This document shows positions 931 through 3,305 of a stretch of 20,309 bases of DNA, one piece after another. The notes under the pieces were generated by a model. The model had not been told where the DNA came from, searched no databases, and worked only from the letters and a program-made list of their open reading frames with translations. The stretch comes from a virus: IMG/VR virus record IMGVR_UViG_3300036832_000370, positions 1-20,309 of that record. One strand, written 5' to 3'. Every line of letters starts with the position of its first letter. Position 1 is the first letter of the stretch. Made by a program: the position numbers and the translations under genes.

Positions 931-1752
931 TCAGATCAGCAGGCCGTTGCGTTGCGCGAACGCGATCGGGTCGGTGGCCGACTTACGCAAGTTGCAGTTC
1001 GCACAAGCGATGACGAGGTTGTTCGGCCAGTTGGTGCCGCCCTTCGAGAGAGGCACCAGATGGTCAACGTGATAGTTCTTCTTTGCTGGCTTCGCGCACC
1101 AATGGCACCTCCAGCGTTGTGCCTCTCCAATGCGTTTGATGTCGGCGCCGGTGTGGCTGCCCTCGGCGTTCGCCTCCCGACCGCGGCGCCGAAGTTTGAT
1201 GGCCCGGAAAGCCTCGGGGTTTTCCTTGCGCCACAGGTCCGCCTTCTCTGGATGTTTCTCGCGCCACCGCTGCGTCCTGGCAGCGCTCCTTTCTGGGTTG
1301 GCCTTCGCCCATTGTCTGTTCGTCTCGGCGATCTTCTCCTTGTTCACCGCACGATAGGCCGCCATCTGCTCCTGGTTGGCTGCCTGCCACTTTAGCGACC
1401 GTGCGATGCTTGCGGTGGGATCGCGGTGGTACCGTACACGGCCCTGTTCCCTGATCTTTTCGGGGTTGGTTGCCATGATCAGTTCATAGCGCACCTTCGA
1501 CTGTGCATTTTTTTCAGGCCGATGCTGGTCGTCCCATTCTTTGGTCCGACGCCGTTTCCCTTCCAGCGTGGCCTCGTCCATGGAATGAACGCGGGTGCAT
1601 TCAATGCACTGTCCATCGACCGTTTTGCGTTCGCTGACGTGACCCCGCTTGCAGGGCTTCGTCTCGCCCATGAAGTATCGGCGCAAGCCCGCGGCCTGGG
1701 CCTGCTTACGTGTGACGACAGCCCCGTCATAGGGTACATATTCCAAAGCCAT
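931..1752 (-). CDS. HNH endonuclease, free-standing, next to the intron-split capsid gene
   Basis: A 273-aa protein from ATG 1752 (MALEYVPYDG), with TAGGTG about 8 nt upstream. An in-frame ATG at 1851 would add 33 residues that cross a hairpin and look non-coding, so 1752 is preferred. The N-terminus has a zinc-binding signature, CKRGH at residues 34-38 and CIEC at 49-52, known from phage homing-type HNH proteins. The middle is a Lys/Arg/Glu-rich helical region with NPEK-like repeats (about 60-180). The C-terminus is a classical HNH nuclease: CHWC 216-219, HVDH 228-231 and CANC 250-253. The family cuts double-stranded DNA with a beta-beta-alpha metal fold. It starts 120 bp after the stop of capsid exon 2, outside the group I intron. 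A homing role in support of that intron is inferred from this placement. Confidence 0.9.
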   Translation of the reverse strand: MALEYVPYDGAVVTRKQAQAAGLRRYFMGETKPCKRGHVSERKTVDGQCIECTRVHSMDEATLEGKRRRTKEWDDQHRPEKNAQSKVRYELIMATNPEKIREQGRVRYHRDPTASIARSLKWQAANQEQMAAYRAVNKEKIAETNRQWAKANPERSAARTQRWREKHPEKADLWRKENPEAFRAIKLRRRGREANAEGSHTGADIKRIGEAQRWRCHWCAKPAKKNYHVDHLVPLSKGGTNWPNNLVIACANCNLRKSATDPIAFAQRNGLLI

Positions 1753-1783
1753 GATTTCGCACCTATCCTGCGTTTTGTGGTCA

Positions 1784-1818
1784 GAGAGCCAGTGGTGTTC
1801 GAAGCACCACTGGCTTTC
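1784..1818 (-). promoter_or_regulatory. Strong hairpin in the leader of the HNH gene
   Basis: AGCCAGTGGTG (1787-1797) and CACCACTGGCT (1805-1815) form a perfect 11-bp inverted repeat around a 7-nt loop. Two outer pairs plus one G-U wobble extend it to 1784-1818. It lies between the capsid stop (1873) and the HNH start (1752). No U-tract follows on the minus strand, so it is not a canonical intrinsic terminator. It may be an RNA-processing or transcript-stability element separating capsid from endonuclease expression; that role is inferred. Confidence 0.6.
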
Positions 1819-1872
1819 GCTATTTACCACACAATCATGGGTGTGATACATCGTTATTTCATTCCGATGTCG

Positions 1873-2009
1873 TTACGCATCTGCGACACTGGAAGTATAG
1901 ATCGTCACGCAGCCTGCGTCTACCGGCTTTGTCTGATCCACCGTTGGATCGATACCAAAGCGCAATTTCCCGATACCCCTCATCTCCTGGAGTCCTACCC
2001 CGTGCATGT
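1873..2009 (-). CDS. Major capsid protein, exon 2 (C-terminal 44 residues)
   Basis: This is the missing C-terminus of the capsid gene. Read from A2009, the first two bases complete a Tyr codon begun by T2287, and the frame continues MHGVGLQEMRGIGKLRFG to TAA at 1875-1873. In N4-gp56-type capsids, as recalled, the segment DYG(F/Y)MHG-(I/V)G-EMRG, then K-RFG-DPTVD and a terminal V-(T)-(F/Y)TS-VADA follows directly after the AWAQR-KST region, which here ends exon 1. Exon 2 has no start signal of its own and would be read only from spliced RNA. Exon 1 (964 nt from ATG 3250) plus exon 2 (137 nt) gives 1101 nt, a multiple of three, for 366 residues. Confidence 0.85.
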
Positions 2010-2286
2010 CCGACGTTTCGGGTAGGTATCGTTTCTTCGCCAGTGGTCGCGAGGCACTGACCGCCCTCTCGGGCTGCTACCGGTCGCCCGGTAGATGAGA
2101 TCATATCATCACCCCAATGGGGTGTCGGGCGCTTCGGGGCGCTTGCCCCTACTCCCTTGCGGGATGATCGTTGCACCTTCCAGCCTTGCGGCTGGCTTGG
2201 CTCAGTATTGTCTCGATGTGAGAGGTTCACTGAGTTCACCCGATTTGCAACCGTCCATTAATGGACGGTGGGGCCCATGCTATTTA
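2010..2286 (-). ncRNA. Group I intron (IA2-like) inside the major capsid gene
   Basis: The continuous capsid frame ends at TAA 2260-2258 inside this segment, and capsid coding resumes at 2009. Group I features visible on the minus strand: the 5' exon ends in U (2287) and the intron ends in G (2010). The internal guide pairs G2274 with U2287 as the wobble and CCC 2273-2271 with exon GGG 2290-2288 (P1). GCATG 2280-2276 pairs with exon-2 CATGC 2008-2004 (P10). ACCGTCCAT/ATGGACGGT (2250-2269) forms P2. CTCAGT (2234-2229) with ACTGAG (2206-2201) forms P4, followed by GAACCTCTC and GAGACAAT as in T4 td. AAGGTGCAACGATCATCC (2178-2161) matches the R-type element, and its GATCATC pairs with GATGATATGATC (2110-2099) to form P7. 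There is no ORF inside. The assignment rests on core motifs and on restoration of the capsid frame; splicing is not shown. Confidence 0.88.
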
Positions 2287-3250
2287 ACCCATAGTCACGC
2301 GTATTCGTCGTCGACTTCATCCTTTGCGCCCAGGCCACGCCGAGCGCCTGCGCGCCGCAGAGCACGGAGGCGGCGACGTCGATGCCACCGGCGCCGGCTC
2401 CCGGAATAACCGGCATCTCGGGGATTTCGCGGATGATGATGCCGTCGTAAAGAATATCGCCAGCCGTGAAGAGCGGATTGTCGCGCCCGCGGTCCCACGC
2501 GTATTGCAGCGTGTTGATGATCGTGGTGTCGAGCAGCAGGTCGCGGAACACGAGGCTCGGCATGAAGCAGACGAACCACTCTTCGTCGTCGTTGACCGAG
2601 ATCGGCCGGATGCGCGGCGAGGCTGAGCGGGCCATGCGTTTGGCGAGCGTGAGGATAGGCGCGCTCATACGGTCACCCGGCGATGCGATGGTGAGCAGCG
2701 CGGTGGCCATGACGCCCGAGGCCGCGTTGGCCTTCTGGTGGCCGAACAGCACGCGGTCGGCGTTGTTGACCATCCAGGCGTTGCGCTGGGCGGCCGTGGC
2801 GGTGGAATACGGCACCTGGACCGAGCCATCGGCGGTCATCGCCTCGAGCGAGGTAATGATGTCCGACCGCATCTTCTCCAGTTCCCAGTTCATCAGCGCT
2901 TCGCGCGCGGCTTCCCTGAGGTCGATGACGGACTTCTGCTCGTCCCATTCGCTGACCGCGACCGCGTGGCGGAACGCCGAGACGACGAGGTTCAGGCTTC
3001 GGGCGTTGAGGATTTCCTCGTTGCCCTCGAGGATCGTGTTCCCGGTCACGCCCGCCCCGACCAGTCGGCGCACGGTCGGGAACACGATGGTATCGCCGGG
3101 CTTGCGCGTCAGGTCTTCCCTGACCTGGATCATCGAGCCCATGGTGGTGCCCATGTAGCGGGCGAACTGGTTCTTGCGGACGTACTCGGTGAAGAAGTCC
3201 GAATCCCAGATAAGCGGAGTCAGCCCTGGTCGGGCTGCGGTCAGGTTCAT
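2287..3250 (-). CDS. Major capsid protein, exon 1 (N4-gp56 type)
   Basis: Exon 1 encodes 321 residues of the shell protein, from MNLTAARPGLTPLIWDSDFF to AQRMKSTTNTRDYG, plus the first base of the next codon. Recognisable family traits are the N-terminal W-(D)-FF-EYVRKN-F-RYMG segment, the GDTI-FP strand with G-TGN-ILEGNEE, and the C-terminal AQALGVAWAQR. ATG 3250 is chosen; an in-frame TTG at 3259 is an alternative, and GGGAAA lies about 10 nt upstream of it. Without splicing, translation would add LNSMGPTVH and stop at 2258, losing about 45 conserved residues. The gene follows the scaffold-like gene and a small hypothetical gene, the usual head order. The protein would assemble the icosahedral head around the scaffold. 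Confidence 0.87.
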
Positions 3251-3305
3251 GTCGGCCAATGCTTGGGTTTCCCGCGTCGGGGTTGATTTTACGAGTGCGG
3301 ATTGA

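Follow-up and report, generated by a model that had tools for sequence, protein, structure and literature searches.

A predicted HEG-less group I intron in a phage major capsid gene, with a free-standing HNH endonuclease gene directly downstream

Group I introns that are spliced from the major capsid message of a phage are already known from mycobacteriophage LittleE and lactococcal phage Tuc2009 (PMC3706429), and collaborative homing is known as well. Splicing of the LittleE capsid intron was proven by RT-PCR and protein sequencing. The intron described below shares with it the location in a major capsid gene, the U preceding the intron and the G at its end. It differs in being 277 nt long and free of a homing endonuclease gene (HEG), whereas the LittleE intron, found in an actinobacterial siphovirus, comprises 819 bp and encodes a LAGLIDADG-like protein. 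Tuc2009 likewise carries a group I intron in its capsid subunit gene; this case is taken from its citation in PMC3706429, and the likeness is one of intron type and host gene. A HEG-less intron in a structural gene, of 265 bp, is reported by the same source for mycobacteriophage BAKA. It lies in a tail gene, its sequence is shared with the intron at another site, in the LittleE capsid gene, and the passages of PMC3706429 used here describe no linked free-standing HNH gene for it.

The other described likeness concerns the neighbourhood. In cyanophage psbA and in T3/T7-like phages an ORF-less group I intron adjoins a free-standing endonuclease gene (PMC3984707, PMC10448857), and collaborative homing was defined for just this layout (PMC3984707). 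The endonuclease target in those systems was shown to be the insertion site, whereas the present evidence is co-occurrence and the host gene encodes the capsid. Podoviridae sp. ctDrO704 (MW202512.1) and Phage C72C1 (OQ984150.1) likewise have a major capsid gene that is split, with a group I intron core resembling ours, the former differing by an HNH-like ORF inside the interruption, near the capsid N-terminus. The stretches viewed of both records bear no intron annotation. In C72C1 (OQ984150.1, 8530–9731; L262) the major head protein is annotated as two genes with the intron core between them, along with three likely spurious ORFs on the opposite strand. The first-pass annotation of our locus had called its intron unreported-looking. 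This holds for the record itself, the search of annotated phage records having returned short core matches only, but not for the category, since capsid-gene introns are published (PMC3706429).

The window, i.e. the whole stretch of DNA analysed, is a 20,309-base IMG/VR record of a soil-type virus of bacteria and probably a fragment. Pfam and PHROG searches identified in it genes for a P22-type portal, a terminase, a PF13252 capsid protein and an HNH protein. A scan of genome contigs with the spliced capsid protein found no relatives, and therefore no host can be named. The features of the locus, all on the minus strand, are:

2287–3259, minus strand: major capsid gene exon 1, codons 1–324 and the first base of codon 325, with start TTG 3259 or ATG 3250 (ORF list; Pfam PF13252; PHROG 334 major head protein; alignment with 80 relatives)
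2010–2286, minus strand: predicted group I intron of 277 nt without a homing endonuclease ORF (RF00028 at 59.2 bits; empty site in the nearest relative; covariation; 17/17 homologous copies)
1873–2009, minus strand: major capsid gene exon 2, from the second base of codon 325 to the stop, 137 nt (frame and length equal in intron-free relatives)
1783–1830, minus strand: leader of the HNH gene, consisting of a -10-like element GTGGTAAAT followed by GCGA, by a hairpin that covaries and by TCTGACCAC (conserved in 19 leaders)
931–1752, minus strand: free-standing HNH endonuclease gene (273 aa) that immediately follows the capsid gene, a putative trans-acting homing enzyme (PF01844, E 7.4e-11; PHROG HNH families)

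The capsid ORF runs from 3259 to 2258 on the minus strand, and its stop falls within 2010–2286. Removal of this interval (2287 joined to 2009) gives a single frame ending at 1873, which comprises 369 codons from TTG 3259; counted from ATG 3250 it has the 366 codons that the first-pass annotation had reported along with the stop at 2258. Across the exon joint the spliced capsid reads DYGYMHGVGLQEMRGIGKLRFG. The match to Pfam Phage_capsid_3 extends from E 1.2e-40 and profile positions 13–324 of 376 for the unspliced product to E 4.3e-48 and positions 13–375 of 376 for the spliced one.

These frames by themselves could be read in two other ways. The insertion might be a non-splicing one that truncates the capsid protein, in a pseudogene or through an assembly error; the unspliced frame, open to 2258, still covers most of the capsid profile. 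Alternatively, one protein encoded in two frames might be joined by a programmed frameshift or readthrough, which would have to skip 277 nt containing stops. Both readings are addressed by the relatives. IMG/VR was searched with the spliced protein, and the best 80 of 169 relatives were taken. All 80 capsids are continuous across the junction, one of them (L080) being interrupted elsewhere in the gene, and relatives have no extra residues at this position. In the nearest relative, L001 (96% identical), the empty site is exact and ungapped (GGC TAC ATG CAC GGC against GGG T|AC ATG CAC GGG in the window), and clean empty sites are present in other intronless alleles too. The C-terminus that the first-pass annotation had predicted for the joined frame is thus the one found in the intron-free proteins. 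L001 also lacks the HNH gene: its next gene starts 11 nt past the capsid stop, where the window has 931–1752.

The same intron interrupts the same codon in 18 other records, collected by pattern scans with the intron-core sequence and one HNH search. The 17 readable junctions, window included, all have a U before the intron and a G at its end, and excision restores the frame in each, with the motif DYG[YF] or DYDF; intron lengths are 250–284 nt. Recurrence in 18 other metagenome contigs, restoration of the frame in 17/17 copies and compensated base pairs that include the pairing of P1 with the exon (see below) speak against truncation, which we regard as very improbable. A frameshift or readthrough, contradicted already by the empty sites, is less probable still. 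The pseudogene and the frameshift readings were both rejected on the empty sites and the covariation.

A group I intron is the reading that these data favour. The run of Infernal with Intron_gpI on the minus strand that the first-pass annotation had proposed gave a positive result (cmscan; RF00028, 2302–2077, minus strand, 59.2 bits against a gathering score of 50, E 5.5e-13). It is the sole Rfam family matched in the window, and the homologous introns of relatives match it likewise. The longest stop-free stretch within the 277 nt is 82 aa and the HNH matches lie outside the intron, which itself encodes no endonuclease. A canonical P1–P9 structure was drawn by hand onto an alignment of 16 sequences and its pairs were then counted. 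The helices discussed below are:

2271–2290, minus strand: P1, exon GGGU (2290–2287) with the internal guide GCCC (2274–2271), the 5' splice site lying at a U-G wobble; almost every aligned copy forms this helix
2125–2243, minus strand: P3, UCGGGUG (2243–2237) with CGCCCGA (2131–2125); 100% of cells paired in 16 copies, two pairs compensated
2201–2234, minus strand: P4, CUCAGU (2234–2229) with ACUGAG (2206–2201), P5 inside; 99% of cells paired
2099–2169, minus strand: P7, the guanosine-binding helix, pseudoknotted with P3, GAUCA (2169–2165) with UGAUC (2103–2099); 100% of cells paired, one pair changed from U-A to C-G in 6 copies
2077–2094, minus strand: P9, CUACCGG with CCGGUAG; 100% of cells paired, with compensation in 5 of the 7 pairs

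Standard pairs make up 93.8% of the cells, a percentage that favours the window, on whose sequence the structure was drawn; the compensations are independent of this. Changes on both sides affect 28 pairs, with 101 compensated cells over the 16 copies. None of 500 shuffles reached the observed compensation, and sliding the partners by 1–3 columns gave at most 7 pairs and 15 cells. The covariation score is 0.304 against at most 0.073 when slid. The pseudoknotted P3/P7 core with P4–P6 and P8 shows compensatory changes, P6 being paired in 100% and P8 in 94% of cells. The U-G wobble of P1 at the end of exon 1 and the terminal intron G are present in 17/17 copies at this site. P1 itself is compensated, as GACU with GGUC in L108 and as GCGU with GCGC in L080; the exception in the alignment, L123, is mis-aligned there and its pairs can be read by eye. 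Chance is excluded because of the covariance score, the 28 doubly compensated pairs and the frame restored in 17/17 copies.

The type, strand and both boundaries of the intron given by the first-pass annotation agree with the Intron_gpI match, the empty site and the frame-restoring copies, and its P1 (GGGU with GCCC, with the U-G wobble), P2, P4 and P10 (GCAUG with CAUGC) are all present. P7 is present as well, its precise strands being GAUCA (2169–2165) and UGAUC (2103–2099). By comparison, then, the intron structure and the exact junction are established, and 2010–2286 very probably is a self-splicing group I intron interrupting codon 325 of the major capsid gene; the comparative support for this predicted splicing is very strong. 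The capsid RNA would fold after transcription so that exon GGGU pairs with the guide GCCC; the intron would then excise itself at GGGU|U...G|ACAUG and leave the normal message for the 369-aa capsid protein.

Two extra hairpins, P7.1 and P7.2, between P7 and the 3' strand of P3 are the mark of subgroup IA. Both occur in the hand-drawn model at this place and both covary; judged by these hairpins alone, the intron may be called IA-like. The P6a hairpin as drawn fits the relatives poorly, the peripheral loop being variable in them. This loop is exchanged as a block, GGTTCGCGGTTCCAGTCCGCGTTC in L104, L111, L121 and L124–L126 against CCCGCCCGATAGGCGGG in L083 and L118, in introns that are otherwise similar.

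Three observations go beyond the first-pass annotation: the intron recurs in 18 related records, there are other insertion sites, and an HNH gene is linked to the intron. On a tree of 101 capsids the introns appear at scattered and separate spots, and the sister of the window, L001, is intronless. Intron core identity exceeds exon 1 identity in 100 of 120 pairs, a comparison whose weight is lowered by ribozyme constraint; examples are L126/L125 (intron 0.996, exon 1 0.894), L121/L125 (0.966, 0.80) and L104/L111 (99.2%, 90.9%). In L126/L125 the identity peaks at the intron and exon 2 (0.996, 0.993) and drops on both sides, including within the HNH gene, and therefore argues for conversion in that pair, centred on intron and exon 2. 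Comparison of capsid classes revealed no general co-conversion tract and no exon 2 recoding in HNH-positive alleles: in all of the classes exon 2 DNA has diverged further than exon 1, and the classes overlap in their GC3 drop. As far as the sequences tell, the HEG-less intron moves horizontally between phages.

How it moves may be connected with the gene next to it. An HNH homologue comes immediately after the capsid gene in 14 of 17 informative records with the intron and in 22 of 73 without it (Fisher p 1.6e-4, uncorrected for relatedness). These rates are not population estimates, as intron sequence served to find the records with the intron, and those without it are the best 80 of 169. A Pagel-type test of correlated evolution on the exon 1 tree, which left out two records found through the HNH gene itself, gave LR 18.6; none of 98 simulations under independence was as high or exceeded 8.5. 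The intron and the HEG are thus inherited jointly above expectation, and the layout of a HEG-less intron beside a free-standing HEG is that of collaborative homing. This is the likeliest route: the downstream HNH enzyme would cut capsid genes that lack the intron, close to the insertion site, and repair would copy the intron, exon 2 and the HNH gene together.

Points against such trans homing are the 22 intronless HNH carriers, the 3 intron-bearing records without HNH, the divergent HNH proteins and the missing general signature of co-conversion or recoding. A strict linkage of intron and HNH gene was ruled out by the carriers that lack the intron. The records with only one of the two also speak for a different explanation, in which the intron splices while the HNH gene moves independently of it and reaches the place behind the capsid gene through intronless homing of its own, the place being a shared recombination hot spot. 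Very different HNH proteins adjoin similar introns (37% aa identity between the window and L083), and turnover of HEGs is a published alternative for free-standing HEGs next to introns (PMC10448857). The association nevertheless survives the tree-aware test made without the HNH-ascertained records. We give independent insertion somewhat less than an even chance, and mobility of the intron by collaborative homing via its HNH neighbour, with a putative cleavage step, about an even one.

The leader of the HNH gene is a conserved element too. In the window and the leaders of 18 related HNH genes, 11 of the 13 hairpin pairs show double-sided changes. The -10-like element reads TG-n-TATAAT in several relatives and may be a promoter; the element after the hairpin reads TCT[AG]ACCAC. 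No Rfam family matched the leader at its gathering score. A symR-like match (E 2.7e-6, 38.9 bits against a gathering score of 61) was taken as a hairpin coincidence.

Close kin of the intron occupy two other sites of the same capsid gene, and P1 is re-matched at each. In L080 the intron follows codon 28 (codons 28/29, CGT|TAACTG...AAAG|CGA, by eye), and in L123 it lies at codon 328, 13 nt further downstream than the window site (GGGGT|CCAG...ATTG|CGG, by eye). These two introns are 94% identical despite their different sites. L253 has two introns in one capsid gene, the first of them read by eye and below the Rfam cut-off. For this N-terminal intron (L253, 1340–1616) the frame-consistent junction would make it end in A, not G. 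Relocation within one capsid gene, with a re-matched P1, has occurred occasionally in relatives, perhaps by reverse splicing or by off-target cutting.

Related introns at three capsid sites (codons 28/29, 325 and 328) with guides matched to each speak for another way of spreading, or at least of reaching new sites: the intron would splice in reverse into capsid mRNA, which is very abundant, and reverse transcription and recombination would follow. The concentration of kin found by core sequence in major capsid genes (see below) is the bias expected if abundant mRNA is the target. A homing enzyme cutting off target also explains relocation, however, capsid genes are also targeted by free-standing HEGs (PMC10448857), and the pathway is without direct experimental proof according to a review (PMC3984707); we consider this route rather unlikely.

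Kin were collected by intron-core sequence alone, with the present capsid family excluded; IMG/VR being uneven, the result is a lead rather than a survey. Exons beside these introns form at least 40 clusters (at least 104 loci). Major capsid genes account for at least about 16 clusters (at least about 55 loci) from six PHROG families besides 334, as assigned from representatives and partly by hand. Other exons among the matches listed belong to ATPase (at least 13 loci), DNA polymerase, ribonucleotide reductase, terminase, tail sheath and psbA genes. L142, L122, L179, L129, L203, L194, L237, L181, L150, L137 and L140 have related cores whose neighbouring exons belong to at least six further major capsid families. 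In Vibrio phage R16F (OP793884.1, 81692–84228; L261) the terminase annotation falls into four pieces, with a related intron core among them, and there are probably several unannotated introns.

The kin suggest a capsid preference of this intron lineage; by contrast, genes of nucleotide synthesis and DNA metabolism are stated to be the favoured hosts of phage group I introns (PMC12350094). Tentatively, a lineage of small HEG-less group I introns might have specialised on phage major capsid genes of at least seven PHROG families (334, 1328, 3437, 267, 283, 371 and 1357), moving within one gene to new sites with re-matched guides and spreading either through neighbours that act in trans or through reverse splicing, with abundant capsid mRNA as the target; we hold this broader proposal to be doubtful at present.

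Gene callers truncate these capsid proteins and lose their C-termini, so that taking introns into account in annotation corrects a core marker gene of uncultivated phages. Among known examples of such elements the comparative evidence for this intron is unusually good, and what deserves following is how the intron relocates inside one gene and why its kin prefer capsid genes. The series of alleles with and without the intron, with and without the HNH gene and at three sites in one gene makes two long-standing questions testable, namely how introns without a HEG keep their mobility and whether reverse splicing carries group I introns to new sites.
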